Assembly (NCBI GenBank): GCA_937930535.1
Contig: CALGKJ010000097.1
Span: 1-63,175, forward strand
Direction of reading: 5' to 3'
From: an uncultured Clostridia bacterium
GTDB taxonomy: Bacteria; Bacillota; Clostridia; Lutisporales; Lutisporaceae
Length of the DNA: 63,175 bases
Of the stretch, positions 45,426 through 61,255 are shown one piece after another. Below the pieces are notes generated by a model that was not told the DNA's origin, made no database searches, and saw only the letters and a program-made list of their open reading frames with translations. Every line of letters starts with the position of its first letter. The stretch's first letter is position 1. The translations under genes were made by a program, and so were the position numbers.

Positions 45426-48218
45426 CTAATAGGCTTGTGTATTTTGAACAATAGAAAAAGTTTCGCCATCATATTTTATATAGTCAGATGTATAAAGTTC
45501 TTTAGGAATACACTTAATTATCAGACCCTTAAGTCTTAAATACCCTTCAAATTCATAGAGTGTAACTTTATCAACTCCATCTTTGCTCATTATATATACA
45601 ACAAGCTCATCAAAGCTGGTTATTGGGAAGTCTTGGCGAATAACAACGCCACGTATATATCTCCGATCCTTAATCTGCTGCTCAACAATTTTATAACCAC
45701 ATCTATAATCTTCAATCAGTGAAACAACTAAAAACTCATTCCATTCATATCCTATATCCGGGAAGCCCTCATAGTCAAATATTCCCTGTATGGAAAGATA
45801 TTCGGATTTATCAATAAGAACCCCAACCCTATAATTAAAGAATTCAATCTGCTCCATAGTAATGCTAAAATGCTGTCTAAAAACATATTCATCAGATGAT
45901 ACTCTAATACAGTCTTTTTCAATTAGTCCAAAAACCATACTTGCAGTCACTGGCGACCACTTTAAACGCTCTGTAAGTTCGATGTATTTTGAGTAGAAAA
46001 TTCTATCCTTTTGCTTCAAGAAGCTTAATGCTATACTTTTAGACTCTAGTCCAGTTTCTGCAAATATTGGAGTCATTATGTGAGGACGGCGGAATACATA
46101 TTTATCTGAGAAGAAGTATCCAACAATATAATAGAGGTGAACAGCCTCCTCTATATTATTATTCTTAAAGAACTCCTCCATTCTGTCAGCAGCCATTATA
46201 TAAAGTAGTTCATCACTTGTATATCCACTATTTTCGTGAAGTGCATCATTAATAATTTGGTTAAGCTCCTCAATATCAGCGGTCTGTACTTTTATATTAT
46301 CAATACTGTTAAAATAGTTGTAGCCCCACTGGATAATCCTAGATTCATTCATTATACTGTTAAAAATAACAGTGGGGCTAATCCCCTGAAGGTTCCTCTG
46401 TATTTCATCCCGATGAACACATTTTCCTTTATCAGTCAAAATCATGTTTATTCGCTCAGCAACACTGCAGAAATGCCCTTCTGGTTTCGTTAAATAATCC
46501 CTGCTGAAAGAATACTCTCCCTCATAATAGAATTTAAGCACACCATGAAGGTAGTGGTGATTATCAATACCGCTGGTCATTACTAATAAGCCTTGAAATT
46601 CGTCAAACAGCTCGCTGTAGAATATTTCAGCTCTAGGGAGAGCCTCTATATGTTCTTTTATTGTACTTATGATATGCTGAGGTACTGACATATTTTCAGG
46701 CGCTGTATATATACCTCTTCCCCTTAGTATCAAATACTCACTTATACGTGCTGTCAGCGCCCTGTTATTTTCAGGTAATTCAACCCCTTTAAATTCAGAC
46801 TTAATAATATTTCTAAGTCTACTAAGATCTTCGTCGTCATATACTCTTATCCCATTTTGAAAGTGGATTCTTACAACCTCTCGGCATAAAACGGCATAGG
46901 ACTGTTTTCCTTTCACTACATAATCGCCATAAATACGATACCCATTTAGCCGTAAAAAGTTTATGAATTCCTCAGTACCTATATATCCAATCCGGAGCTT
47001 AGTCAATCGTGATTTTACTTCTTCAAGTGATTGATATAAATAAGCTGTAGCACCAATTATTTCTTCAGCTATTTTTCCAAGGGTAGCCTCCAAATTTTTA
47101 GATACTTCATCACATTTAAGAAACATATCAGCGAAATCAAAGTACAGGTATTTTCCAGTCTGCTTCAGTATATACTGCAGCATTGTTGAGACCTTATTAT
47201 CCTTCATAAAATTATCAATGTCATCAACTCTTAAACTTCCCATTTCTGCAGTAGCATTTATTAAATCTGCTGCTAATCCAACTACCTTAACTAATTTATT
47301 AACTAATTTATTTTCAATTTGTCCAATTCGTGCTCTGCTTAAGTCATATTCTTCTCCTATTTTCTGAAGCGTATATCCTTCTGCTCTCTTAGATAAAATT
47401 TTAAATTCCTTGTCGTTTTCATATTCTCTAAATATACTGATTACAATCTCATTAAACGGCTTTATTAGGCACTTCAAAGTAGACAGCAATCCACTATATA
47501 TCTGTGTTCCAAGTTTTGATCTTAATGCTCCTGCAGATGAATATTTTAAATCTTTAATCTTTAACAAACCATTTTCTTCTATATGGTTAATTATTCTGTC
47601 GCTTATTCCGATAATTTTCAAAGAAGCTACATTAACCATTTCATTGTCGCTACATATAAATTCAAATGGGTAAAAACCATACTCTTCGGAACTTGCTTCT
47701 TTATTTTGAATGTTTAGTTCGATTATATTCTCCTCATATACCTGCTTCAGCTGTTCAATTGTTCCTACACCAATTCCTCTCAGAGCCGCCGCTTCATGAA
47801 ATATTTCAGGCGAAATGTCTTCTAATGAATTGATGTCCTTACTTCTGCACATTCTAATAAATGCCGCAGATCGTGCCACCCTTCTAAAAACATCTAATCC
47901 GCCGACCGCTATTCTGCTTACATGCTGTTCGGTACTGTCCGCAGAAAGGCAGTAGCTGACTTCTTCTATACTACATGTGGTATTCTCATCTTGGCAGAAT
48001 TTTAAGAATCGATCCCTTACCCTGCTGATTTTCGCCTCTCCCATCCACTTTACACTATATAACTGCATAAAATTAAAATCTACTAACTCTTCAGCAAAGC
48101 AAATACCATTTTCAGTGCAGTATTTAACAAATAAAGAATATTCATCTCCACAGAATACATCCTCAATCTTGTGCAAACCCGTTACCCCCACGTATATTAA
48201 ATATTTACTTTCCAGCAC
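45426..48218 (-). CDS. 930-aa HhH and sigma-region-4-like protein of the GHKL cassette
   Basis: A large protein without a recognised enzyme domain. A helix-hairpin-helix-like segment (AAALRGIGVGTIEQLKQVYE) lies near residues 143-162, and a second one resembling the RNA polymerase alpha C-terminal domain (ISDRIINHIEENGLLKIKDL) near 205-225. A sigma-70 region-4-like helix-turn-helix (AEGYTLQKIGEEYDLSRARI then GQIENKLVNKL) spans about 279-309. Winged-helix-like segments occur later (GKCVHRDEIQRNLQGISPTV). Multiple DNA-binding modules suggest a scanning or sensing subunit. It overlaps the DUF6339-like gene by 14 bases. Confidence 0.6.
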   Translation of the reverse strand: MLESKYLIYVGVTGLHKIEDVFCGDEYSLFVKYCTENGICFAEELVDFNFMQLYSVKWMGEAKISRVRDRFLKFCQDENTTCSIEEVSYCLSADSTEQHVSRIAVGGLDVFRRVARSAAFIRMCRSKDINSLEDISPEIFHEAAALRGIGVGTIEQLKQVYEENIIELNIQNKEASSEEYGFYPFEFICSDNEMVNVASLKIIGISDRIINHIEENGLLKIKDLKYSSAGALRSKLGTQIYSGLLSTLKCLIKPFNEIVISIFREYENDKEFKILSKRAEGYTLQKIGEEYDLSRARIGQIENKLVNKLVKVVGLAADLINATAEMGSLRVDDIDNFMKDNKVSTMLQYILKQTGKYLYFDFADMFLKCDEVSKNLEATLGKIAEEIIGATAYLYQSLEEVKSRLTKLRIGYIGTEEFINFLRLNGYRIYGDYVVKGKQSYAVLCREVVRIHFQNGIRVYDDEDLSRLRNIIKSEFKGVELPENNRALTARISEYLILRGRGIYTAPENMSVPQHIISTIKEHIEALPRAEIFYSELFDEFQGLLVMTSGIDNHHYLHGVLKFYYEGEYSFSRDYLTKPEGHFCSVAERINMILTDKGKCVHRDEIQRNLQGISPTVIFNSIMNESRIIQWGYNYFNSIDNIKVQTADIEELNQIINDALHENSGYTSDELLYIMAADRMEEFFKNNNIEEAVHLYYIVGYFFSDKYVFRRPHIMTPIFAETGLESKSIALSFLKQKDRIFYSKYIELTERLKWSPVTASMVFGLIEKDCIRVSSDEYVFRQHFSITMEQIEFFNYRVGVLIDKSEYLSIQGIFDYEGFPDIGYEWNEFLVVSLIEDYRCGYKIVEQQIKDRRYIRGVVIRQDFPITSFDELVVYIMSKDGVDKVTLYEFEGYLRLKGLIIKCIPKELYTSDYIKYDGETFSIVQNTQAY

Positions 48219-48924
48219 TTAGTTTAGCGGCAACTTTGCTATATATATCATCATATGATAAACAGTCAAGTATATATGTACCGCCTAATATATTTATATA
48301 CTTTGAAATTTCTCTAACAGTAAATCTATCAATCTTAATGCCACTCTTTTGCGCATCTAAAAGAGCGCTCAACATCCCCCTCATTACCGATGGGTTTTTT
48401 GTAAAATTTCTGCCGAAAACTGATTCCATATAGTCTGTATCAGTGCAGACAAATTGAGTCAGTTCATATGGATCAGTTCGATTTTGATCATATGTTATTT
48501 TCCCCATCCACCATAAGCGCGATATACCATTACGGAAAAGTGATCGCTGAATTGAGTAGTTAAATAAATAGTGATTAGCCATATCATTTGCATTCTCAGC
48601 GGGCCATCTGTATTTCATGTATTCTGAATATCTTCCAAAGCATAAACTTGCCCACATTCTTTCATCTGATGCCTGTGATTCAGACAGAAACCTCACGTGC
48701 TTATATACTCTCTTAATATTCTCAAGATCTGTTAAACTGCTCTTTGTTTGAGATGTATCAAGGTCAAAATCATCCAAGTCAAAAGAAGTCTCTAAGAGTA
48801 CTCCTTCCCCCTGGATATACTCTTCAATAGCAGCATTCCCCTTCTTTAAAAAGTTTTTATAAATATGTTCCGTATTGGTTTTAATGCTGATTAGGCTGTC
48901 TTCTGAAAAAATCTTTAACTTCAT
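48205..48924 (-). CDS. DUF6339-like protein of the GHKL cassette
   Basis: A 239-aa soluble protein. ERMWASLCFGRYSEYMKYRW, SLFRNGISRLWWMGKITYD and DPYELTQFV match the pattern I associate with DUF6339, a family of unknown function seen beside GHKL-type ATPase genes. The C-terminal INILGGTYILDCLSYDDIY is also typical. It overlaps the upstream gene by ATGA and the downstream gene by 14 bases, so stoichiometric expression with its partners is likely. The assignment is from memory of the family pattern. Confidence 0.65.
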   Translation of the reverse strand: MKLKIFSEDSLISIKTNTEHIYKNFLKKGNAAIEEYIQGEGVLLETSFDLDDFDLDTSQTKSSLTDLENIKRVYKHVRFLSESQASDERMWASLCFGRYSEYMKYRWPAENANDMANHYLFNYSIQRSLFRNGISRLWWMGKITYDQNRTDPYELTQFVCTDTDYMESVFGRNFTKNPSVMRGMLSALLDAQKSGIKIDRFTVREISKYINILGGTYILDCLSYDDIYSKVAAKLSAGK

Positions 48925-49790
48925 ACTGCATCCTCCTCGTCTCCTAATGAGAGAAATTCTAATGATTTTAACAGTGGTGTATTCAGCAGCTGCTGTGCAA
49001 ACTCAAATGAATTGATCCTATTAAATCCTTCCTCTGTGAATTCTACCCCAAACCTCTTTGCAGTCTTTCTCAATGAACGGAACCACCTATAGTCCTCATA
49101 CATAAATAAGTTTCCACATTCTCTCTTAAGTTCATCAATTACATGCATTAAGGATGGTACAATGATCATCGAATGCATAGCTGGCTGTAAATTCGGCATG
49201 CTCTTCATGTTCTTATACCTGTAGTATGCTGTTTCAGGTAGAATAACTACAATCTTCTGTTTACCTGTGTCTACCTTAATCAGCTGTACATTTTTATCTG
49301 AATTTTGTATTATACAGAATATTGATGATGTATTGGCAACGTCATCCCGCTCTTTATCAATACGAATATTTGACTGGCTGCCAACTGCTATAATACAGCC
49401 TTTATCAATGTTAAAGCGAAATCCTCTGTAATCTGGATTAAAATCTTTATTTGAATATGCAGGTATGTCTTCAGCAGCAGTAATGAATGTACATACTTGC
49501 ACCAATCCATTAAGTTTACTGTCAGAAATTATATACTCAAATAAACTTGAATCACAATTTACTGCTGTTCTAAAACAGGTCTGCGGACATTCTATATGGT
49601 GAGTATAAACCGCCTTGCCCTGTTTAATAAGCAGCTGAAGTTCTTTATTATCAGTTTCAGCACTGAGCGTAAACTTTATGTTATAGCCATCTAATGCAGC
49701 TCCTGCACTAGATGTGAATTTACTTGCACTATAATCATCTGTGTCTTCTGCCAAAACAGGATATGGATACTGTTTATATTTTATTACCAT
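48921..49790 (-). CDS. Unknown 289-aa protein of the GHKL cassette
   Basis: A soluble, beta-rich protein with no family I recognise. The N-terminal half (YKQYPYPVLAEDTDDYSASK, KAVYTHHIECPQTCFR) looks like a strand-rich domain with two conserved-looking Cys; a helical C-terminus (SMIIVPSLMHVIDELKRECG) follows. No catalytic motif is visible. It overlaps the ATPase gene by 17 bases and the DUF6339-like gene by four, so it is presumably a structural partner of the ATPase. Confidence 0.6.
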   Translation of the reverse strand: MVIKYKQYPYPVLAEDTDDYSASKFTSSAGAALDGYNIKFTLSAETDNKELQLLIKQGKAVYTHHIECPQTCFRTAVNCDSSLFEYIISDSKLNGLVQVCTFITAAEDIPAYSNKDFNPDYRGFRFNIDKGCIIAVGSQSNIRIDKERDDVANTSSIFCIIQNSDKNVQLIKVDTGKQKIVVILPETAYYRYKNMKSMPNLQPAMHSMIIVPSLMHVIDELKRECGNLFMYEDYRWFRSLRKTAKRFGVEFTEEGFNRINSFEFAQQLLNTPLLKSLEFLSLGDEEDAV

Positions 49791-51636
49791 ATGCTTTTAC
49801 CTCCATTGAACAGTAGTCAGAATACCCAATTTTGATATTTATACGTACAGGTACATCTTTAATAAAGTCTAGTTCCTTTATAAGCCCATCTGAAACATGC
49901 AGTGCCTTACCAGATACAAGCGCTGCACTGACAATTGGTGCAGTATAATTTCCACTTTCTGCAGTTAAGAAAATTTCAAGATATCCATTTGATACTGATG
50001 TCTGCGGGACAAACATAATTATATATTTACCTTCTGACTTATTTTCACATACTACTCTGATCTTTTCTGCCTTAATCTCTTTAAAAGAAGGCATTGGCTC
50101 AGACCCACCTAAGTGCGGTGCAGCTGGTTCAGGCGGTCGAGGACCTGGGTTTACTATTTTCCCACCTCCATGATTGTATCCAGAATCATCCACGTCACCA
50201 TCACTTTTTCCGGTTAGATCTTCCTCTTCATTCTTGTCACCTCTGGTTTCACTTCCAGCATTAGGCTTTCTTTTTACACGAGTAATTTCTATCTCTTTAA
50301 CTTTATTTGAAATAGTTTCTTCTTTCCCACCTTCCTTGACGTCATCTGCATCATCTGGAAGATATTCACCTACTCCTTCTGCATCAAGCTGTTCATCAGC
50401 ACTCTGCTGAGCGAGTTTTTCCAAACAGTCTTTTATATAATCATTAAGACCTTTAATAATGTTTTTGGCCATGATTGGATTATTTGAGCGCTCTGGCTCC
50501 CATTTAGTGTGCTGAGGATTCTCAAGTTTTCTTAGTATTGTATTAATTCGCTCTCCCTCAATCAGCATAATGCCACCAAAGGGTATATACCCAGAGATAT
50601 TACCTCTATCCATAATCTTCATGCCAGTTTTTCTCAACATTGCTACCTTACGGTGCATTTCCCGATCAATTAATAATCCAAGTTTAATTATTCCATAGTT
50701 CATAAAATCTGTTTCAAACCACTCAGTTTTATCAGATGTCAGTACTCTATAATATTTATCAGCATAACCGGTAATTTGGTCAGCATAAATACTCATTAGT
50801 TCAGGCAAAGTTCCCTTACTTATCACTTGTTCTCCAACATGAACGATAAGGCGCTCATTCCATATAGAACCAAGGAAATCATCAATTATTGAAATTATGA
50901 TGTCATCTTTCCAATCCTCACCAGAAAATCTGTATCCGGCTATATAAATATCTGTCCCATACCCAGCCTCTACTCTAGAGAAGTGAGGATCTAAGTCAAT
51001 AGATTCATATACGGGTGTATTTCTTTCATTACCAAAGTACCCTATCCCCTGTGTTGTTTCTCCGTCATCATCTCTGAAAGTAACAAGTCTCGAGACTCCC
51101 TGACTTGCTACTACTTCTTCATTATCGTATGTATTATAGTATACTGTTGAGAAGCTCGAGCAAGCATAAGGTGCAAATTTACCAATACCAAAAGAACCTC
51201 CTGCTGTTCCGCCCTTATCCGAAACCCCTGATGATTTTGTAAGGTTTGTCCAATCTGTATTAAGTTCTTTCTTTGAACCCCTTAAGCCAGTTGTATTGAA
51301 ATCACTTATCCTAAGCATGTTTACTTTATAGTCATTTATTTTTTCAATTGCTTCATCAAAAAAGTCTTTTGTTTTCTTTGATTTTTGATTTTTCCAAAAT
51401 TCCATGCATTTATCAAAGACTCTTCTAAGTTCACTGCTACCGGGTATCTGTGAAGGGCTCAGAGAAAAAGCAGAGAACTCAACTTTAACAGTACCTCCAG
51501 TTCCCGCATCAAGTGAATTCTGACAAATTTCTCTTGCAAGAGATTTAATTGGTGTTCCTCTAAACGTTTCGAGACCCGAATCACCTATACCCTTAATTTC
51601 ACCGTGACCGTTAGACGGAAATTTCCACTGTGCCAT
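49774..51636 (-). CDS. GHKL/Hsp90-like ATPase
   Basis: A 620-aa protein starting at the ATG after GGGGTG. Its Bergerat ATP-binding fold has an N box SLAREICQNSLDA (Glu36, Asn40, Asp43), a G1 box ISDFNTTGL (Asp112, Gly117) and a G2 box GGTAGGSFGIGKFAPYACS (about 142-160). A mid domain follows, then an acidic, low-complexity linker (about 425-510) and a beta-rich C-terminal domain. Related GHKL ATPases occur in restriction-associated clusters and include the relatives of MORC proteins. It probably acts as an ATP-driven clamp on DNA. Confidence 0.85.
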   Translation of the reverse strand: MAQWKFPSNGHGEIKGIGDSGLETFRGTPIKSLAREICQNSLDAGTGGTVKVEFSAFSLSPSQIPGSSELRRVFDKCMEFWKNQKSKKTKDFFDEAIEKINDYKVNMLRISDFNTTGLRGSKKELNTDWTNLTKSSGVSDKGGTAGGSFGIGKFAPYACSSFSTVYYNTYDNEEVVASQGVSRLVTFRDDDGETTQGIGYFGNERNTPVYESIDLDPHFSRVEAGYGTDIYIAGYRFSGEDWKDDIIISIIDDFLGSIWNERLIVHVGEQVISKGTLPELMSIYADQITGYADKYYRVLTSDKTEWFETDFMNYGIIKLGLLIDREMHRKVAMLRKTGMKIMDRGNISGYIPFGGIMLIEGERINTILRKLENPQHTKWEPERSNNPIMAKNIIKGLNDYIKDCLEKLAQQSADEQLDAEGVGEYLPDDADDVKEGGKEETISNKVKEIEITRVKRKPNAGSETRGDKNEEEDLTGKSDGDVDDSGYNHGGGKIVNPGPRPPEPAAPHLGGSEPMPSFKEIKAEKIRVVCENKSEGKYIIMFVPQTSVSNGYLEIFLTAESGNYTAPIVSAALVSGKALHVSDGLIKELDFIKDVPVRINIKIGYSDYCSMEVKAYGNKI

Positions 51637-51654
51637 ATATTTCACCCCTTATAC

Positions 51655-52120: not shown

Positions 52121-53257
52121 ATGTTTATTAAACAGCAGAGTAAATCTTCTATAGATATATACTGTGAAACGCTACAAGCAGTTGGAGCATTGTCTCGACT
52201 AGCTTCCGATAATAATATACCTTATCTAGGATATAGAGAGGCAGAAAATATTTTTTGCGATTCATTTACAGCAAAAAATCTAGCAAGAGCAGATTGTTCA
52301 GCAGATGCCTCAAAGAATGGATTTGGCATAGGAATTAAAACCTTTTTAAATGGAACAGGTAAAACACTTCAGAAAGTCGCTGAGTTCAACAAACTAGCTT
52401 CTGAATTTAGAGGGAAAGATGCAGAACAAGTAGTTCATATTGTTTCAAACCTTCGAAATGAGCGTATACAGTTCACAAAGAGAACCTATGCTATTAAAGA
52501 TATGATTTATCATTGTATAGTACGTGATACTGGGAAAATCATGATTTATGAAACACCAATGGATGAGATAAAGATATCTGAAGTAAAAAATATCGCCACA
52601 ACATCTGGTAATATAATTACATTCAGTGATAAAATAAACGAATACAGCTTTAACATATCCAAGAGTACACTATATAAGCGCTTTATTACCGATAATATTT
52701 TAATTGATATTCCTATAATCATTTTAAAAAATCCATATGAGCTAATACGACGCCTCTTCAGTGGCTACTTCAGTGGGTCATTAATTCCGGTTTCTGAAAA
52801 ATTTGAAGAACATGTAGTACTGCCACTATTCTCTGATAAAGGGGGAAGAAATGTTCCTGAAAAAAGCGGGCTTAATCAGTGGAATGCCGCAGGGCGCCCA
52901 CGAGACCCAGATGAAATCTACATTCCTATTCCTGCTTGGATACATAGGAATTTTCCTGACTTCTTTCCAAATAGAGATATGCCTTTCGACCTGCTACTGC
53001 CAGACAGCAATACTATGCAGGCAAAGGTCTGTCAGGATGGAGGCAAGGCACTCATGTCGAATCCAAACGCAGCACTTGGAAAGTGGATGCTCCGCAGTGT
53101 CCTCAACCTAAAACAACGTGAACTGCTGACTTATGAGCGACTAAAAGTTCTCGGAATCGACTCTGTAATAATATACAAAGAATCCGACAGTAGGTATCAT
53201 ATTGACTTTAAAGAACTAGGGACATATGATGATTTTGTTATAGAACATAACTTCTAG
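52121..53257 (+). CDS. Putative restriction endonuclease with B3-like DNA-binding domain
   Basis: A 378-aa protein after an AGGAGG site. The N-terminal part has YREAENIFCDSFTAKNLARA followed by DCSADASKNGFGIGIKTFL. Glu40/Glu42, Asp62 and Lys73 fit an irregular PD-(D/E)XK nuclease core. The C-terminal about 120 residues (RPRDPDEIYIPIPAWIHRNF, LLPDSNTMQAKVCQDGGKAL, then LGKWMLRSVLNLKQ) resemble the B3-like DNA-binding domain of NgoFVII/BfiI-type enzymes. No PLD-type HxK motif is seen. It is divergent from the methyltransferase operon and is the likely cutting partner. Confidence 0.7.
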   Translation: MFIKQQSKSSIDIYCETLQAVGALSRLASDNNIPYLGYREAENIFCDSFTAKNLARADCSADASKNGFGIGIKTFLNGTGKTLQKVAEFNKLASEFRGKDAEQVVHIVSNLRNERIQFTKRTYAIKDMIYHCIVRDTGKIMIYETPMDEIKISEVKNIATTSGNIITFSDKINEYSFNISKSTLYKRFITDNILIDIPIIILKNPYELIRRLFSGYFSGSLIPVSEKFEEHVVLPLFSDKGGRNVPEKSGLNQWNAAGRPRDPDEIYIPIPAWIHRNFPDFFPNRDMPFDLLLPDSNTMQAKVCQDGGKALMSNPNAALGKWMLRSVLNLKQRELLTYERLKVLGIDSVIIYKESDSRYHIDFKELGTYDDFVIEHNF

Positions 53258-53303
53258 ATCTATACTTCAATTAGACTCACTAATGAGTTTATATTTACGC
53301 AAT

Positions 53304-53334
53304 AGTAGAACAGCTGTTATTCAGTTGTTCTACT
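53304..53334 (+). terminator. Hairpin after the nuclease gene
   Basis: A 13-bp stem AGTAGAACAGCTG/CAGTTGTTCTACT with one G-U pair and a five-base loop. It lies 47 bases after the nuclease stop but lacks a T run, so it may be a weak terminator or an RNA-stability element. Confidence 0.5.
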
Positions 53335-53652
53335 ACCGTGTACTCATGACCTTCTCCCTTTAATTTGATCCATTCCCAAAGTTAGTCTGGATGATATTGA
53401 CACTAACGTAATTTCATTAACATAAAGGTAGGATAATAACATTAACCTTGTAATTTCCATTTATACTTAATAGTGAAAGGCTTAACATTCCCATTATATT
53501 AATCAAAATATATTAATAGTAAACATAGCAGATATCCAGATATATGGTATTAAAGCCTTTAATATGCTAAAATAGGTAGTGTTATGATGTCAAAAATCAT
53601 ATGCATGATATTAAATGGACAGGCTTTATTGCCTGACTTAAGGAGGGGTAAT

Positions 53653-54036
53653 ATGCCACAAGCTGGAGATAGATATGTAGTAACAATTAAACCTTCACAT
53701 ATTGATTGGGGAGAGTACAGAAATCCTACTAATAGAACCATTATTGAAGGTGAATCTTATGTAAAGATACCATCTGATGCAGCTACACAGTATGGAATAG
53801 TTAGAGGTTCAACGTATACTGCTCATTTCACTAATGGTCATGATTCGTTTAAAATTAAAGCTTCGGGTAATGGACCTTTTACAAATGGAGTTCAATATGG
53901 TAAGCAGTTTGAGGGTATTGGTTATGGTGCATGCAAGGCATTTACACCATGGTATGTCTCATGCAATGCCCAAGTTGGTGACAGAGTGCAGGTAGAGTTT
54001 ATTTCTCCTACAGAGGTACAGTTTACGTTAGTATAA
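53653..54036 (+). CDS. Stand-alone B3-like putative DNA-binding protein
   Basis: A 127-aa protein starting at the ATG after AAGGAGGGG. It is all beta-like: PQAGDRYVVTIKPSHIDWGE, GESYVKIPSDAATQYGIVRG, SFKIKASGNGPF and VGDRVQVEFISPTEVQFTLV. The IPS...RG...G.F pattern and the C-terminal strand pair recall the B3-like domain at the C-terminus of the neighbouring nuclease. No catalytic residues are evident. It could be a specificity or regulatory factor of the defence island. The assignment rests on fold-pattern resemblance only. Confidence 0.5.
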   Translation: MPQAGDRYVVTIKPSHIDWGEYRNPTNRTIIEGESYVKIPSDAATQYGIVRGSTYTAHFTNGHDSFKIKASGNGPFTNGVQYGKQFEGIGYGACKAFTPWYVSCNAQVGDRVQVEFISPTEVQFTLV

Positions 54037-54098
54037 TTATTAAAACATTTGACATCATAACATTAAGAGCCCGAGATATGAAGTGCAAAATTCCAATA

Positions 54099-54134
54099 CA
54101 ATTCCGCAAATACTCGATATTAGCGGAATTGTTT
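54099..54134 (+). terminator. Terminator after the B3-like gene
   Basis: CAATTCCGC and GCGGAATTG form a perfect 9-bp stem around a 14-base loop, followed by TTTT. It lies 62 bases after the B3-like stop codon. Confidence 0.7.
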
Positions 54135-54264
54135 TACCCCCCTAGACCACTTTTCTGTTACCAACCTTCGTACATGCAAACATAAAACACACTTCCATAT
54201 TTCGACAAAATCCGCTACACCTTTGATACCAAGCTATCTACGCTCTATCAACGCAACTGACTCC

Positions 54265-54320
54265 ACATGTGTTTTGATAGTTTGGTGATAGTAATTCGCA
54301 GTATAATTGAGGTTTACCCC
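54265..54320 (+). repeat. Dispersed repeat, copy B
   Basis: It matches copy A at 301-356 with about four mismatches and continues into TTTACCCCC-type runs. Both copies are in the same orientation, 54 kb apart, and bracket the ABC operon, prophage and defence island. Further CCCCC-containing sequence at 54130-54142 suggests the repeat is part of a larger remnant. Confidence 0.6.
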
Positions 54321-54481
54321 CTTTTACCCCCCTATAATCAAGCAATTCTTCTATTAATAAATAGTAAATATGTTAACCTTTAGGTATTCACAATACTTTT
54401 ACACTTCAGCACTAACATCAAACCCATACCTACAAATGCTTATCTCAAAAGTAAAACTTTAATTGTGAAGTACAAGTATAA

Positions 54482-56140
54482 TCATCTAAATAGTGCTGAC
54501 ATGGCAGATAGTGAAGAAATAACACCATCAGCAGTTGCCATTCCAGAAAAAATCGGTCTATACTTTGATTTATTTCCTCTTAATTTATAGCTTAAAATAG
54601 CACCTATTGACATAGTAATATAAATACTAAAAGGCAACATAATACCACCAATTATTATTATAGGTGACAATTTGCATTTATTCAGTATAATACAAATAAT
54701 ACATGAAGTAATGATTACATATACGTTAATATAACTAGGAAGGATATTATTACTTAATGACTCTACCATACCTTTTATAGTCATCCCTAGCGTATTTGCA
54801 TATGGTATTGGCAATTGCTCCGATCCGAAAACAAATGATTTGCTGAATATATATACTAAACCAACACAAAATAACGCTCCACAAAAATTACTTAATATAT
54901 TTAAGTATATGTTCTGCTTCTTGGTAATGCCAAAAGCACTCGAAAATTCTGCATTCACTATAAAATATATTCCGGACATTTCAAATACAATCAGACTAGT
55001 AATTATCATTATAATAGTTGTTATATTTGTAGTAAAGGTAAGTAATATTATCAATATTGGTAATAAATCCTCAAGTGCAGAAAACCAAAAACCAGTTTTA
55101 GCTACGCCATGTAAGGTTGAAAAGCCAAGTATAACAGTAATAGGAACTAGTATTAGAAATATCCAAAAAGGCATTGTATTGGCAGGGTTTAAATATCTTG
55201 AAAAGAATAACATATTAAATAGTAAGAATAATATCAAAACTACGATACTTGAAGATGATGCTTTTGTAGATATAAGTTCTTTTATTGTAGTTCTTTTCAG
55301 GTTAGCATTTTCTATTTTTCTATTTTTAAGCTTCTTAATCCCCTCTGAAACGAAACTAAATATTGTAATAAAACCTTGTGTCAATATAAATGAAATTACT
55401 ACTGAAAAAATGTATGGGTTCATCAATTGTTCTACAAAGGTTTTACTGTTATAAATTAAGTAAATAATTACAGAGTATAAGAATCCAATACCCATAATAA
55501 GATAAGTATCATATCCAATTAGATATCCGATAGCAATAAGCATTGGATTATTATCAATACCAAACATACCTATAAATTTAAATGATTTTGGAATTATTTT
55601 CATTATGTTGACTAAAAACGAATATAGGGATGTTAATGAAAGAGATAGTATTAATCCATTATTTTTTTTATCCTTACTTAGTGCATTGAATAAATCAATT
55701 CTTGGCTTAACCATGGGAAACGAAAATTTATCTTTATTATCAAAATACTCATAAAAACATGAGAAAAACAATACGCCTAGAACAGAGGAAACAAGTATTA
55801 TAAAAAACATTTTTATTGAATCTGCGGTTTTGTAGCTACTACTAAAAATTAAAATTGCAGCAAAATAAGTAGCAGCTTGTCTAGTTGCTGCAATAGACCC
55901 TCTTGCAATGATTTCTGCAACAACTGCATTTTTTATTGTAAATCTACCAATCAATAATAATACTAGCAGTACTAACGCTGCTGTATCTATTGTGGAACTA
56001 ATCCCGCTTTTAAACGATAGAAATATTGAAGCCATAATTATTACACTATTTACTACTACTCCGACCACAGATGAATGGATATAGCTATTTTTGGGCAAGC
56101 CCTCTACCTGCTTTTTAACTTCTGTAACATTCTCAATCAT
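54482..56140 (-). CDS. OPT-like oligopeptide transporter of the RiPP operon
   Basis: A 552-aa integral membrane protein with about 13-15 helices. SYIHSSVVGVVVNSVIIMAS, RGSIAATRQAATYFAAIL, NPMLIAIGYLIGYDTYLIMG and the final GMATADGVISSLSAM resemble OPT/YSL-family transporters, which usually take up oligopeptides or metal chelates. It is the third gene of a unit starting with a small peptide and a radical-SAM enzyme. It may export the mature peptide, or import it for sensing. The OPT call is by pattern; another polytopic transporter family is possible. Confidence 0.65.
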   Translation of the reverse strand: MIENVTEVKKQVEGLPKNSYIHSSVVGVVVNSVIIMASIFLSFKSGISSTIDTAALVLLVLLLIGRFTIKNAVVAEIIARGSIAATRQAATYFAAILIFSSSYKTADSIKMFFIILVSSVLGVLFFSCFYEYFDNKDKFSFPMVKPRIDLFNALSKDKKNNGLILSLSLTSLYSFLVNIMKIIPKSFKFIGMFGIDNNPMLIAIGYLIGYDTYLIMGIGFLYSVIIYLIYNSKTFVEQLMNPYIFSVVISFILTQGFITIFSFVSEGIKKLKNRKIENANLKRTTIKELISTKASSSSIVVLILFLLFNMLFFSRYLNPANTMPFWIFLILVPITVILGFSTLHGVAKTGFWFSALEDLLPILIILLTFTTNITTIIMIITSLIVFEMSGIYFIVNAEFSSAFGITKKQNIYLNILSNFCGALFCVGLVYIFSKSFVFGSEQLPIPYANTLGMTIKGMVESLSNNILPSYINVYVIITSCIICIILNKCKLSPIIIIGGIMLPFSIYITMSIGAILSYKLRGNKSKYRPIFSGMATADGVISSLSAMSALFR

Positions 56141-56251
56141 TAAACATCACTCCTAATTCTTATGTCTAACAAAAACACGGATATATTATTATAATCCGAC
56201 TATAGGGTTTTTAGCTTAAAAGTTGGCTTATACAAAGCTGAAAACCTAGAA

Positions 56252-56300
56252 GGGAAGCAATAACTAAATATGAACAAATTAAGTTTTAGGGTTGCTTCCC
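56252..56300 (-). terminator. Hairpin between maturase and transporter genes
   Basis: GGGAAGCAA and TTGCTTCCC pair across a loop of about 31 bases directly after the radical-SAM stop. The following minus-strand sequence is only moderately T-rich, so partial read-through into the transporter gene is plausible. Confidence 0.5.
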
Positions 56301-56307
56301 TATACTA

Positions 56308-57771
56308 CTAGTAATCAATAATACTATCTCTCAATAAACTTATTTTTGCTAAAATTTGTGCTTCTCTCTCTCTATTTAATTCGTTTTGTCTAAGTACTTC
56401 ACTGTCAAACATTTGTGGCTTTGTTGCCGCTACCCACAGCATTTCGATAAGTTGTTCCCTCTCAAAATTGCAACTGCAAGACAGTGCATATATATCGCCT
56501 GTATTTGCTAGTGCTTGTCCCCTGCACCCACCACCACAGAAGTGCCTTACAGTACATTCTGCACATTGTTTATCTAAGTTCTTATTTATGTGTATCTTTC
56601 TTAAGTCCTTCAAAATCGGAGATTCTTTCCAAATGTTAAGAAAATCATTGTCTAAAATATTTCCACAGTTCATTGTACTATGAATAGTGTTTGCACAAGG
56701 ATAGCAATCACCATTAGGCTGAATAGCCAGTGTTCCTGTCCCAGTACCACAGTTAATCATTCTATTTAATAATTTTATATTAGATATATACATAGCTTCA
56801 AGTGTCCCAGGTATATAATTTATTAAGTCAGGATCATCTTCATACATCTCAACAACCTTTTTAAACACTACTGCATCATTTACCCTCTCTAACTTGTTTT
56901 CTTTTGCTCTACCAATACAAATAACTGGTTGTAAAAATACGGCTTTAATGCCAAGTTCTTTTGCTAAATAAAAATATTGCTCTATCTCAGCAAAAAAATC
57001 GTGTGTAATCATAGGAGATAAATGTACTTTATGACCCTCTTCAACTAGACATTTTATCCCATCAATTGTTTTTTCATATGTATTTTTTCCACGAATTTTC
57101 TCATGCGTATTTTTCGTTGCTCCATCCAAAGAAACTTGAATTTTTAAATTAGATATGCGTTTAAGTCTTATAGCTATGTCTTTTGTAATTAAAGTTGCAT
57201 TAGAAACCAAATTTATTCTATCATACCCTTTATAAGCAAAATACTCTAATATTTCGTAAACATCCTTATTCATCAAAGCTTCTCCGCCCGAAACATTAAT
57301 TCTACACGATTCAATCATATAAGGTGATATTTTGTCTATTATTTTTTTAGCGTCCTCAAATGTCATATATTGCTTTTTTAAATTAGATGCATCGATATAA
57401 CAGTGTGAACAATACAGATTACATGCATTTGTAATATTAAAGGTAAGATATTGAATAAAAAAATCTTTAGGTTCTTTTATGTCTAATTCATTGTTTTGGC
57501 CCTCATAGCTTAATGCACAAGCATCATGAAGAATATTAATTAAACTCATAAGTTCATCTATATCAGGCTCAATATCGTACTTATGTCTTACTACACTCAC
57601 TAAATCAATTATGCTTATACCATTTATATAATCAAGTAACTCTACTGTTGGTTGATTTATATATAACCAAAATGGTAATTGTGACCATATAACAATTTTA
57701 TTCTCGTCTTCGATTTTTTCAAGTATAGAATATGGTTTTAAATACATTTTTCTATTATCCAATTTTGCCAC
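56308..57771 (-). CDS. Radical-SAM SPASM peptide maturase
   Basis: A 487-aa enzyme. Residues about 15-95 look like a PqqD-type recognition (RRE) domain (LPFWLYINQPTVELLDYING). The radical-SAM cluster motif is ITNACNLYCSHCY (C-x3-C-x2-C, near 118), with a GGEAL motif later. The SPASM region has MINCGTGTGTLAIQPNGDCY and CAECTVRHFCGGGCRGQA, sites for auxiliary 4Fe-4S clusters. It should install a crosslink or other C-H-derived modification on the adjacent 28-aa precursor. The gene starts 57 bases after the precursor stop, beyond a long hairpin. Confidence 0.92.
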   Translation of the reverse strand: MAKLDNRKMYLKPYSILEKIEDENKIVIWSQLPFWLYINQPTVELLDYINGISIIDLVSVVRHKYDIEPDIDELMSLINILHDACALSYEGQNNELDIKEPKDFFIQYLTFNITNACNLYCSHCYIDASNLKKQYMTFEDAKKIIDKISPYMIESCRINVSGGEALMNKDVYEILEYFAYKGYDRINLVSNATLITKDIAIRLKRISNLKIQVSLDGATKNTHEKIRGKNTYEKTIDGIKCLVEEGHKVHLSPMITHDFFAEIEQYFYLAKELGIKAVFLQPVICIGRAKENKLERVNDAVVFKKVVEMYEDDPDLINYIPGTLEAMYISNIKLLNRMINCGTGTGTLAIQPNGDCYPCANTIHSTMNCGNILDNDFLNIWKESPILKDLRKIHINKNLDKQCAECTVRHFCGGGCRGQALANTGDIYALSCSCNFEREQLIEMLWVAATKPQMFDSEVLRQNELNREREAQILAKISLLRDSIIDY

Positions 57772-57781
57772 CCTTTCTATT

Positions 57782-57830
57782 AATAAATATAAAACTAGAA
57801 AAGTAAATCTTTTCTAGTTTTATATTTATT
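57782..57830 (-). terminator. 22-bp perfect hairpin between precursor and maturase genes
   Basis: Positions 57782-57803 and 57809-57830 are exact reverse complements around a 5-base loop; the core is AAAACTAGAAAAG. The stem begins within the precursor stop codon. On the minus strand it precedes the maturase by only 10 bases. Such a hairpin can act as an attenuator or 3'-end stabiliser, giving much more precursor than enzyme. Confidence 0.75.
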
Positions 57831-57915
57831 AATAGTCTGCACCATACTTAAGATCTAGTCTATATGGACTTGGAGTAGTTATTTTAACACGTGGTTTTTC
57901 TATTATTCTAAACAT
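57829..57915 (-). CDS. Cysteine-free RiPP precursor peptide
   Basis: A 28-residue gene preceded by AGGGGGTG. It begins MFRIIEKPRVKITT and ends PSPYRLDLKYGADY. The N-terminal KP-containing, charged part is leader-like. The C-terminal part has tyrosines at 18, 24 and 28 with Arg, Lys and Asp residues, and no Cys, so thioether (sactipeptide-type) chemistry is excluded. Carbon-carbon or carbon-nitrogen links at Tyr or Lys/Arg/Asp are possible. It has its own promoter, is followed by a long hairpin, and is directly upstream of a SPASM maturase with an RRE-like domain. Confidence 0.82.
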   Translation of the reverse strand: MFRIIEKPRVKITTPSPYRLDLKYGADY

Positions 57916-57944
57916 TATTACACCCCCTTAATAATTCTTTATAA

Positions 57945-57973
57945 AATATATCACATATATTTCCAAGCTTCAA
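57945..57973 (-). promoter_or_regulatory. Promoter of the RiPP operon
   Basis: Minus-strand TTGAAG (57968-57973), 17 bases, TATATT (57945-57950) lies about 30 bases upstream of the precursor start. It is the best-spaced promoter in the AT-rich leader region. Confidence 0.55.
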
Positions 57974-58071
57974 CAATTATTGTTAAAAATAATAAATTAA
58001 TTTATATTTTATACTATTTAACATTTGTGCTAAATACTATTATTGAAAGTTAATTTGAATACCATTATTCC

Positions 58072-58115
58072 TCATGTGGTTTGATAGACTGGTGATTGCA
58101 ATTAGCTATACATAA
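58072..58115 (+). repeat. Dispersed repeat, partial copy C
   Basis: The stretch beginning CATGTGGTTTGATAGACTGG matches the first about 30 bases of copies A and B, then diverges. It lies upstream of the RiPP operon in the same orientation as the other copies. Confidence 0.45.
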
Positions 58116-58343
58116 TATGGAATTATTTTGTAGTTTTTAGTAACTTTAATGATTTTATTTTCTACTTACATCAAGCAAGAATTTTTCTAAGAAATATACT
58201 TCATATACACAGAATCAGTCTTCACCACTGCAATTTCTATTGCAGAAGTTGCTGCCGTGCAAAAAATAAGAAATTGTGCTGATTTTATGGGATTATGAAA
58301 TAATCAGCTTAAAAACTGATTTCCATATTAAATTTAGTTTCAT

Positions 58344-58394
58344 AAAACAGTATCCATCAACTAAGGTTTAATTGGGTTGATAGATACTGGTTTT
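58344..58394. terminator. Imperfect hairpin downstream of the 162-aa gene
   Basis: AACAGTATCCATCAAC and GTTGATAGATACTGGTT pair imperfectly around a loop of about 18 bases, with T/A runs on either side. It could serve the minus-strand gene at 58464 or a plus-strand transcript. Confidence 0.45.
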
Positions 58395-58463
58395 GTTAAG
58401 TAATTAAATTTCTTAAAATTTGTGCATTTTTTGTATGTAATGTCCATTCCAAATACTCTTTAT

Positions 58464-58952
58464 TTAGAAATCTCGTGCAAATAACCAACTTAACATCATT
58501 GAACTATCTTCTGAAGAAAAACCGACTCGATTTAACACACTAAAATAAATAGGAAGTTTTAAGTGTGAAAAAATTTCCGCACCGTCGTTCCAAATAATTC
58601 CAGCGAGTGAAACTTTATTTCTAATGTCTACAAATTTAGAGATTTTTTTCTTAAATTCTTCTCCACTATAAAATTTTGAAATTCCATATACGTCATGATC
58701 TTTCTGTTCTGTAATTGGCTTGGCATATTCTACAAATTTTTCATATAACGAAACAATCTTCTCTTTTAATGAAGGAGAGAATGATTTCAATTGAGAATTC
58801 AGAATATTTCTTGCCTTCGTTTTTACCGTTTTAGGACAATCACTCCTGCTATCTATCATTTCCAACAATTCTTTTGTTAAAGTTTTTGCTGATTCTAGTT
58901 CTGCTCTCTTGAAATCATTTTCCAGAAGAGAATATTCTCGTTCAAATGCCAC
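58464..58952 (-). CDS. HEPN-like protein or fragment
   Basis: A 162-aa helical protein from a GTG start with GGGGG nearby; a stop codon lies seven codons upstream. The last about 60 residues (KKISKFVDIRNKVSLAG, IIWNDGAEIFSHLKLPIYFS, VGFSSEDSSMMLSWLF) recall the C-terminal HEPN domain of ApeA-like defence proteins. Here the RNxxxH motif is degenerate, with no His at the expected position (RNKVSLAG). The N-terminal domain of such proteins is missing, so this is probably a decayed remnant. Low certainty. Confidence 0.4.
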   Translation of the reverse strand: MAFEREYSLLENDFKRAELESAKTLTKELLEMIDSRSDCPKTVKTKARNILNSQLKSFSPSLKEKIVSLYEKFVEYAKPITEQKDHDVYGISKFYSGEEFKKKISKFVDIRNKVSLAGIIWNDGAEIFSHLKLPIYFSVLNRVGFSSEDSSMMLSWLFARDF

Positions 58953-59050
58953 ACATAGCCCCCAGTGTTAGGATAGTTGTCATAAAGAAATTTTATGCTA
59001 CGTACTTCTTCTACACAGATTATTGCTGAGACCAACCATGTGAATATCAG

Positions 59051-59137
59051 TTAACTACGCTTTTTAAAAACACTACGGTATTGCAATAAATATTGGTTCA
59101 GCATTTGTTTCATTAAATTATTGGGAATACTAATCAT
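59051..59137 (-). CDS. Possible 28-aa small protein
   Basis: An ATG eight bases after GGAGGT opens a 28-codon frame (ISIPNNLMKQMLNQYLLQYR, then SVFKKRS). The start signal is very good, but nothing else identifies it. It may be the 5' end of a decayed gene or a genuine small protein. Confidence 0.35.
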   Translation of the reverse strand: MISIPNNLMKQMLNQYLLQYRSVFKKRS

Positions 59138-59713
59138 AGTCAGATACCTCCTACGTTATTATTACCACGATTAGTATTTATAGGATTTCAGGTATTTGAC
59201 CCTGTTAATTTTATACAGTTTTCAAGTTCTGTTATTAAAAACTTGTAAAGTGGTATAATAATACTACTTATAGCTCAAAATAATAAATATACATTATGAG
59301 ACACTGGCACAGGCTTGCTATATGAGTTGTTACAGAACAGCTAACTTGACTATTAGGGGTACGACCGACATACATGTAAAAATAGGTCACATTATGGTAA
59401 ATAATACCACTATGTGACCTATTTTTAATTTATAAAACAATATTTGATTCTAGTGCAAAAAGTCGTTTTCACTGGTTTTTATGAAATTTATCATATGAAA
59501 TCGTTCACAATGACTTAAAACTAGCATTACTTAAGGAATATAATCACTTTTTCTACAAGATTCGTATTCGAATATTGTAGAAAATCACCTAAAAAGTAGT
59601 TTGTGCACTAGAATCATATTTGTAATATTACCATTAATAGTAATACCAAACTTATATAAACTTCCTTTTATAGTAGTTGAAATATGATTATGGCACTAAA
59701 TATTCATACCATG
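59138..59713. other. Gene-poor spacer
   Basis: No gene is supported between the small frame ending the HEPN-like region and the arsenic operon. A promoter-like TATAAT occurs near 59255 on the plus strand. It would lead to the hairpin at 59378-59426 after about 120-165 bases, so a short untranslated RNA is possible. The rest is AT-rich without repeats that I could recognise. Confidence 0.35.
59378..59426. terminator. Strong symmetrical hairpin
   Basis: AAAAATAGGTCACAT (59378-59392) and ATGTGACCTATTTTT (59412-59426) form a perfect 15-bp stem, extended by an inner TGGTA/TACCA pairing. The A and T runs allow termination in either direction. Confidence 0.75.
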
Positions 59714-60121
59714 TTATTTTTTCGGTTTGAGCATACAAGCACAGCCGCCGTTAAGTTCATAATCTAAGTCTTTTTTTATGGGCAACCCATTCTGCTCCCA
59801 CGCTACTACCCCACCTACGACATATGCAACTTGAGTATAGCCTTGTTCAATAAAAAATTTAGCAACCTCTGAACTCTTTAGTCCTACATTGTCTACAACA
59901 ATCAAGGGAATACATTTAGGCACTTCATCAAAGTTTTCTCTATATGAACTAAATGGAAGTAAATAAACATGTGGAAAATCGAAGACCCTATAATTAGTTT
60001 CATATTCCGGACGTATATCCAGAATTGCAGCACCATGCTGAAGATAGCAAAGAGCTTCTCGAGGAGAAAGTGGAATTGACTTTTGCTCTGAGAATTCTTC
60101 ATGAACAAAAAAAGTTTCCAT
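59714..60121 (-). CDS. Rhodanese-like protein lacking the catalytic cysteine, arsenic operon
   Basis: A 135-aa rhodanese fold: LSPREALCYLQHGAAILDIR then PEYETNYRVFD, LLPFSSYRENFDEVP, and VAYVVGGVVAWEQNGLPI. The active-site loop, normally C-x5-R/T, reads VVDNVGLKSSEV, with no cysteine, so sulphur transfer in the usual way is not possible. A C-terminal GGCACMLKPKK adds a Cys-x-Cys pair that could bind arsenic or another metal. It follows the ACR3 gene by 66 bases and is the last gene of the operon. Confidence 0.8.
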   Translation of the reverse strand: METFFVHEEFSEQKSIPLSPREALCYLQHGAAILDIRPEYETNYRVFDFPHVYLLPFSSYRENFDEVPKCIPLIVVDNVGLKSSEVAKFFIEQGYTQVAYVVGGVVAWEQNGLPIKKDLDYELNGGCACMLKPKK

Positions 60122-60187
60122 AGTAACCTTCCTTCTATATACTTCTTTTTACATATATTCTTATAACAACTATAGAATAATATTAGT

Positions 60188-61255
60188 TTAGTTACTTTGA
60201 TGCTCTTTAAACCATGGCTTGGTGTTATTAGCAATTTTGACAAGAGTAAGCATAACAGGTACTTCCACTAATACGCCAACAACTGTTGCTAGTGTTGCTC
60301 CTGATTGCAGACCAAATAATGATATTGCAACTGCTACTGCAAGTTCAAAGAAATTACTTGCTCCAATCATACCAGCTGGTGCTGCAATATTATGTGGTAA
60401 TTTCCAGAGCTTAGACCAACCATAAGCGATACCAAAGATCAAGAATGTTTGTATTGTCAGTGGTATAGCAATCAATAATATATGCAATGGATTTTTTAAA
60501 ATTGTATCTCCTTGGAATGAGAAGATAATTACTAATGTTAAAAGTAATCCGATTATAGTTATATGATCAAACTTCTTAAGGAAAGTATTTTCAAAATAAT
60601 CTAATCCTTTATTCTTAATAACCAGTGTTCTAGTTGAATACCCCAATGCAAGTGGAATAACAACAAATAAAACCGTTGATAGTATTAGTGTATTCATCGG
60701 AACCGAAACATCTCCTACACCTAGTAAAAATGCTACAATTGGTGCAAAGGCTACTAATATTATTAAATCATTAACTGCAACTTGCACTAATGTATAAGCA
60801 GAATCTCCTTTGGTTAAATAGCTCCATACAAATACCATTGCTGTGCATGGTGCTGCACCAAGAAGTACTGCTCCTGCCAAATAATCTTTAGCCAGGTCTG
60901 AAGAAATAAGCCCTTTAAATACTACATAGAAAAAGAAAGCTGCTATTGCATACATAGTAAACGGTTTAATAAGCCAGTTTGTTACGCAGGTAACAATAAG
61001 TCCCTTTGGTTTCTTGGTTGCATTAACTATGCTTGTAAAATCAATTTTTAACATCATTGGATATATCATTAGCCATATAAGTATAGCCACCGGAATAGAA
61101 ACATTATAATATTCAAATTTACTTAGAGTATCTGGAATTGACGGCAATACCTGACCTATCAAAATACCTACGATAATACAAGCTGCAACCCATAGTGTTA
61201 AATATTTTTCAAATATCCCTAACCCTTTACCTTTGATTTCTTTACTTTCTGTCAT
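60188..61255 (-). CDS. acr3: ACR3-family arsenite efflux transporter
   Basis: A 355-aa membrane protein with ten predicted helices. The ACR3 signature GAAPCTAMVFVWSYLTKGD, with the conserved Cys, is near residue 132. WLIKPFTMYAIAAFFFYVVF and the late PAGMIGASNFFELAVAVAIS with its conserved Glu are also typical. It pumps arsenite out of the cell and may be energised by the ArsA ATPase encoded upstream. Confidence 0.94.
   Translation of the reverse strand: MTESKEIKGKGLGIFEKYLTLWVAACIIVGILIGQVLPSIPDTLSKFEYYNVSIPVAILIWLMIYPMMLKIDFTSIVNATKKPKGLIVTCVTNWLIKPFTMYAIAAFFFYVVFKGLISSDLAKDYLAGAVLLGAAPCTAMVFVWSYLTKGDSAYTLVQVAVNDLIILVAFAPIVAFLLGVGDVSVPMNTLILSTVLFVVIPLALGYSTRTLVIKNKGLDYFENTFLKKFDHITIIGLLLTLVIIFSFQGDTILKNPLHILLIAIPLTIQTFLIFGIAYGWSKLWKLPHNIAAPAGMIGASNFFELAVAVAISLFGLQSGATLATVVGVLVEVPVMLTLVKIANNTKPWFKEHQSN

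Follow-up and report, generated by a model that had tools for sequence, protein, structure and literature searches.

What is made by a locus in which a gene for a tiny peptide, devoid of cysteine, stands directly before a radical S-adenosylmethionine (SAM) enzyme with a SPASM domain? The question is raised by a stretch of 63,175 nucleotides from an uncultured Clostridia bacterium of the family Lutisporaceae (contig CALGKJ010000097.1, assembly GCA_937930535.1; this whole stretch is called the window below), on whose minus strand a 28-codon open reading frame (ORF) is followed by a 27-bp hairpin, a radical SAM/SPASM gene and a gene for an OPT-family transporter, in that order. Judged from its sequence, the assignment as a locus for a cysteine-free, SPASM-dependent ribosomally synthesised and post-translationally modified peptide (RiPP) is well supported, because the Shine-Dalgarno (SD) sequence of the peptide gene is extreme, a SPASM enzyme is encoded next to it and a peptide of this kind recurs at a second, distantly related locus. 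The three genes are presumably co-transcribed.

The precursor peptide

As a preliminary description of this DNA had proposed, a 28-codon frame with a strong ribosome-binding site does lie directly upstream of the enzyme gene (57829-57915, minus strand). Its product, MFRIIEKPRVKITTPSPYRLDLKYGADY, contains neither Cys nor Trp, has Tyr at positions 18, 24 and 28 with Arg, Asp, Lys and Leu standing between them (stretch PYRLDLKYG), and ends in Asp-Tyr; residues 1 to about 15 are probably the leader and those from about 16 to 28 the core. The lack of Cys excludes sactionines and other thioethers for this precursor, and the earlier dismissal of the thioether classes is thus right for the 28-residue peptide.

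The SD region (AAGGGGGTG, 57916-57935, minus strand, a few nucleotides before the ATG) forms a duplex of -14.0 kcal/mol with the anti-SD sequence, the strongest among the 488 ATG-initiated ORFs of 20-60 amino acids in the window (the runner-up reaches -11.6 kcal/mol), with values of -7.2 and -7.4 kcal/mol for the maturase and transporter genes downstream. When the 529-nt upstream region was shuffled 2000 times with its dinucleotides preserved, an ORF of 20-60 amino acids with an equally strong SD never arose. As a positive control, the same scan picks out the known SCIFF precursors that precede SCIFF-type maturases elsewhere (about -10 to -12 kcal/mol in other genomes). A second short ORF with a comparable SD was not found beside the maturase gene. 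The 28-codon ORF is hence predicted, on sequence grounds, to be a genuine translated precursor gene. It has no other match in the genomes of its family, and nothing close among phages and plasmids. The promoter that had been claimed for it fared less well: the site in question (TTGAAG-17-TATATT, 57945-57973, minus strand) agrees with 9 of 12 consensus positions and carries a TG before the -10 element, but is not separable from chance, such sites being found 30 times in the window against 31.9 expected.

The runner-up SD belongs to another 28-residue ORF, MISIPNNLMKQMLNQYLLQYRSVFKKRS, at 59051-59137 (minus strand).

The hairpin

No perfect inverted repeat in the window exceeds in length the perfect 27-bp hairpin with its 5-nt loop (57777-57835, minus strand; -29.6 kcal/mol). 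The hairpin starts within the last codons of the precursor ORF, so that the last Tyr codon lies inside one arm, and ends just ahead of the SD that serves the maturase gene; no second full copy was found in the genome. It is probably an mRNA processing site or a partial stop, through which more precursor than enzyme would be made. Next in length among the perfect inverted repeats here is one with arms of 19 bp at 166-209.

The maturase and the transporter

The enzyme gene (56308-57762, minus strand) is indeed of the SPASM radical SAM type, with matches to PF04055 (6.6e-23) and PF13186 (5.7e-10). Of its two alternative starts, TTG 57762 (484 amino acids) is the better one, since its SD reaches -7.2 kcal/mol compared to 0.2 for GTG 57771 (487 amino acids). 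Three radical SAM cysteines in a CxxxCxxC motif (CNLYCSHC) and seven SPASM cysteines are invariant across eight distant sequences. When scored against the NCBIfam models, each with its curated cut-off and with the best 25 matches listed, the maturase stays below every cut-off: StsB (NF045574) gives 164.1 bits of 625, NirJ2 150 of 500, heme b synthase 147 of 500, mycofactocin maturase (TIGR03962) 146-147 of 265, WgkB (NF050035) 136 of 650 and PqqE 89 of 381, and no triceptide maturase model was recognised among these 25. With no listed family cut-off passed, we agree with the preliminary description in leaving the chemistry open. The genome encodes its SCIFF maturase separately (663.8 bits, over the cut-off), as fits a clostridium, and none of its radical SAM proteins passes the mycofactocin cut-off.

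Among solved structures, a profile search places CteB first (E 8e-34), in an alignment that starts at profile position 36 and runs through most of the RiPP recognition element (RRE) of CteB. The AlphaFold model of the maturase, with a mean predicted local distance difference test score of 63, is nearest to the RiPP maturases SkfB (Z 26.2) and SuiB (Z 26.1). Its N-terminal 100 residues score below 50, presumably because the alignment drew on few loci, and form two short strands followed by three helices at this low confidence. Sequence alignment and model together suggest that a candidate RRE is likely located in these roughly 100 residues.

The gene next after the maturase, at 54482-56140 (minus strand), encodes a membrane transporter of 552 amino acids of the OPT family (PF03169, 9.9e-15), in line with what had been described. 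No relative of it reached E<=1e-8 in the 290 other genomes of the class that were searched, plasmids and phages gave nothing close, and an OPT protein is unusual as the transporter of a RiPP locus. The literature searched held neither a RiPP adjoining an OPT transporter nor a link between OPT proteins and radical SAM RiPPs, which is weak evidence given that subscription journals were not covered.

A distant second locus

Close relatives of the maturase were not found in its own order, in 391 genomes of the class, in 397 from a different family of the same class, in 22 genomes of another class or in single-protein and profile scans of genome and viral contigs; plasmids gave weaker generic matches only, and matches across the phylum are mostly limited to the enzyme core. 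The nearest full-length relative (27% identity over 94%, 181 bits) is encoded by L008 (MT837634.1), a human faecal contig whose deposited record is that of a phage. Both enzymes share an N-terminal stretch, IVI[WF]xx[VL]PFW, although a search of DNA with the pattern [IV]VI[WF]xx[VL]PFW returned 31 viral and 21 genomic matches without a single radical SAM gene. Among the NCBIfam matches listed, the L008 enzyme also has StsB as its best and the mycofactocin maturase as its second (131 bits). Downstream of its gene lies an ORF for a 27-residue peptide without Cys, MMLASAQTGQKSESYTEVYGLGNFKEY, with an SD of -11.1 kcal/mol (equalled in 0.35% of shuffles), followed by a hairpin and by a gene for an MFS transporter. 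The two proteins encoded upstream are probable regulators of the helix-turn-helix/TPR kind, and the arrangement resembles that of quorum-regulated RaS-RiPP (radical SAM RiPP) loci (PMC13361665). Opposite the regulators, an antisense ORF of 55 residues (L008 3106-3273, minus strand) has a hydrophobic N-terminal stretch and a Tyr at its end, and may encode a secreted signal peptide.

The peptides of the window and of L008 are alike in having three Tyr residues, a Tyr-Gly pair and a C-terminus formed by an acidic residue and Tyr. Among shuffles of the L008 peptide, 1.2% have a [DE]Y end; Y..YG..[DE]Y as a whole, a pattern picked after it was seen, arises in 0.005% of shuffles.

Short ORFs also stand near other radical SAM genes. 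A conserved ORF of about 33 residues, such as MFGKLGGRKATLNMSIDGFCVSFRCWGHRVTIG, is found in L022, L044, L041, L019 and L039, with SD energies down to -14.6 kcal/mol, about 200-700 nt upstream of the matched part of a radical SAM/SPASM gene; response-regulator-like genes are nearby in L022 and L039, and these ORFs look like another candidate family of RiPP precursors. A Tyr-ending peptide similar to those above was not found at the distant full-length matches L022, L039, L040 and L185. In a related genome of the same family (G006), L186 carries an ORF of 26 residues, MAKEKKSKFVSPKVRKVACIPCMSLE (706-786, on the strand of the radical SAM genes; SD -16.0 kcal/mol), ahead of genes for a PqqD-like protein and two radical SAM enzymes, a RiPP-like locus as well.

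Proposed pathway and its alternatives

The reading that we prefer, with a probability of about one half (the RiPP nature of the locus included), is that of an orphan SPASM RiPP with a link between Tyr and a neighbouring residue. Precursor, RRE-fused SPASM maturase and OPT transporter would form a compact operon, with the 28-residue precursor made in excess through its very strong SD and through the hairpin after the stop, which would hold down downstream expression. The N-terminal half of the precursor may bind the RRE-like domain, whereupon the maturase would form a 5'-deoxyadenosyl radical at CNLYCSHC and abstract hydrogen from an Asp, Lys, Arg or Leu that stands near Tyr in the C-terminal half. 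Addition of the resulting carbon radical to a Tyr ring, the putative acceptor, would give a product with at least one C-C link (C-N or C-O being less likely) and a loss of 2 Da apiece, which the OPT protein might carry across the membrane. Cysteine-free Tyr links have precedents in Arg-Tyr of the RRR peptides and Glu-Tyr of pyrroloquinoline quinone (PQQ) (PMC8326336), as well as in the Tyr-Asp and Tyr-Arg links of triceptides (PMC11002830); other Tyr-directed SPASM reactions without Cys are the decarboxylation of Tyr with a Val link in mycofactocin and the excision of tyramine at Xaa-Tyr-Gly in spliceotides (PMC8326336, PMC11002830). The Tyr-neighbour link is favoured because it is the commonest among these known reactions and because Arg, Asp, Lys and Leu stand between the Tyr residues.

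Several points weigh against it. The evidence comes from one genome and one distant relative, too few for a test of conservation: the homologue search suggested by the preliminary description did yield one informative relative, but invariance of Tyr cannot be demonstrated from one. In the tree, the two enzymes group together only without the long branches (93/80), and no longer do so once these are included; the grouping of the maturase with the long-branch radical SAM protein L002 of the same genome, seen in a first tree, was judged unreliable. The local alignment of the two peptides is not significant, 0.73 of shuffles being as good. Because of this, of the post hoc pattern and of the Tyr codon in the hairpin arm, the common core motif YG...[DE]Y-COOH is only a lead from sequence. 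The RRE-like N-terminal part put forward earlier is suggested by the reach of the CteB alignment and by the strands and helices of the low-confidence model, but not by any profile or Pfam match in that part. Furthermore, none of the ORFs from 53257 to 61255 was recognised as a regulator, nor was a protease recognised near the locus, and OPT proteins are otherwise mainly known as importers.

Next in rank, because of the C-terminal Tyr, comes a mycofactocin-like reaction, i.e. oxidative decarboxylation of that Tyr, after which the tyramine-derived group would possibly be linked to a neighbouring residue. The ends of both candidate precursors (acidic residue-Tyr) and the presence of the mycofactocin maturase among the top families for both enzymes speak for it, but both scores (146 and 131 bits) are far under the cut-off of 265, the peptide ends in Asp-Tyr and not in Val-Tyr as MftA does, none of the radical SAM proteins of the genome is of the mycofactocin type by score, and the position of the last Tyr codon in the hairpin arm could impose an RNA-level constraint on its sequence; all in all this reading is unlikely. 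Least probable of all is a reaction of the spliceotide type, in which tyramine would be cut out of Lys-Tyr-Gly to leave an alpha-keto-beta-amino acid. The precursor does contain KYG (residues 23-25) and the L008 peptide VYG, which conform to the known target motif Xaa-Tyr-Gly (PMC11002830), but YG is short and may recur by chance, 28 residues leave no space for a leader of the Nif11 or nitrile-hydratase kind, and the operon contains no further gene that could encode an RRE as a separate protein.

The ORF might alternatively be no substrate at all, but a regulatory leader peptide that together with the hairpin acts as attenuator of the genes downstream. A short ORF with a very strong SD before a strong hairpin would suit such a role, as would the L008 peptide, which precedes a hairpin and an efflux-like gene of the MFS family. 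When tested, however, the idea was not supported: no competing pairing between the hairpin arms and the peptide region was found, since shuffles do equally well or better in 24% and 52% of cases. In addition, the hairpin does not cover the SD of the maturase gene, the next gene downstream encodes an enzyme of the peptide-maturase type, and in L008 the peptide is located downstream of its radical SAM gene. An attenuator is very unlikely. It is quite improbable, finally, that the maturase acts on another substrate, or modifies the precursor in another manner (epimerisation, an ether link or a heterocycle). SPASM enzymes carry out many reactions (PMC8326336), and StsB, the closest NCBIfam model among the matches listed, is a sactipeptide enzyme; against this, no further short ORF beside the enzyme has an SD of that strength, and Cys is not available for a thioether.

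A bolder extension, which we consider rather improbable, is that of a new RiPP class with a YG...[DE]Y-COOH core, in which the maturase would carry out an undescribed SPASM reaction at the C-terminal acidic-Tyr pair and the OPT carrier would handle the product, possibly by bringing it back into the cell to serve as cofactor or metal carrier.

Genomic surroundings

The locus has a G+C content of 29%, compared to 34.5% for the window, and has as neighbours, on one side, a type II restriction-modification/PDC-M33 region and, on the other, a probable arsenic cluster (rhodanese, SBF-family permease, ArsA), which together make its horizontal acquisition plausible. The first of these flanks comprises a candidate PDC-M33 defence system with A, B and C components (scores 751, 333 and 297) at 48205-51645 (minus strand), 43861-45162 (minus strand) and 52121-53257 (plus strand), next to two type II enzymes, a cytosine methyltransferase and a restriction enzyme. 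A 150-residue protein at 53584-54036 (plus strand) is weakly similar (E 0.049) to the B3-like C-terminal domain that is also present in the neighbouring restriction enzyme, possibly as a duplicated DNA-reading domain. Prophage-like genes (tape measure/minor tail protein, family A DNA polymerase) occupy about 13599-38816 (minus strand).

Comparison with known systems

Tiny precursors beside a radical SAM/SPASM enzyme and a transporter are also found with StsB/GggB (streptosactin) and the streptococcal RaS-RiPP maturases (PMC13361665). StsB is the best NCBIfam match listed for both the window enzyme and that of L008, but the former attains 164 of 625 bits and its precursor, without Cys, allows no sactionine; in contrast to the streptococcal loci, an Rgg/SHP pair is not recognised here (ORFs 53257-61255) and the transporter is an OPT protein. 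Like the RRR peptides (ryptides, with an Arg-Tyr C-C link), the window peptide lacks Cys and has Arg next to Tyr (PYRLDLKYG), but it misses the RRR core motif. CteB and the SCIFF ranthipeptide maturases are its maturase's best solved relatives by profile, most of the RRE region included, whereas their thioether chemistry needs Cys and the SCIFF maturase of this genome is a separate protein. With mycofactocin (MftA/MftC) the locus shares a SPASM enzyme of the same broad group and a C-terminal Tyr, but neither a score over the cut-off nor the Val before that Tyr, and with the spliceotides (PlpX/PlpY) an Xaa-Tyr-Gly, but neither room for a Nif11/NHLP leader nor a separate RRE protein. For PQQ (89 bits against the PqqE cut-off of 381) and the WGK peptide tryglysin (136 bits against the WgkB cut-off of 650), the maturase is likewise below the cut-off; the lack of Trp also sets the peptide apart from WGK and makes the Lys-Trp (KxxxW) core of streptide impossible. 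Y-R-L and Y-G-A occur in the peptide as possible aromatic-X-X cyclophane motifs of the triceptide kind; a model for a triceptide maturase (3-CyFE) was not recognised in the best 25 matches listed.

As far as sequence can tell, the locus is a real and rare case of an orphan, compact, cysteine-free SPASM RiPP, and it probably builds a small modified-peptide natural product, because a radical enzyme of the peptide-modifying kind is encoded next to a tiny gene whose ribosome-binding site is very strong. Cysteine-free SPASM maturases have repeatedly been the origin of new bond types, and a whole pathway of three genes with a 28-residue substrate is within direct reach of co-expression and mass spectrometry. 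Among the counterparts of the window locus, that of L008 has the nearest full-length maturase and a 27-residue, cysteine-free peptide with three Tyr, YG, an acidic-Tyr end, a strong SD and a hairpin after it, but differs in the low identity of its maturase (27%), in a peptide gene placed downstream of it, in an MFS transporter, and in two probable helix-turn-helix regulators upstream.

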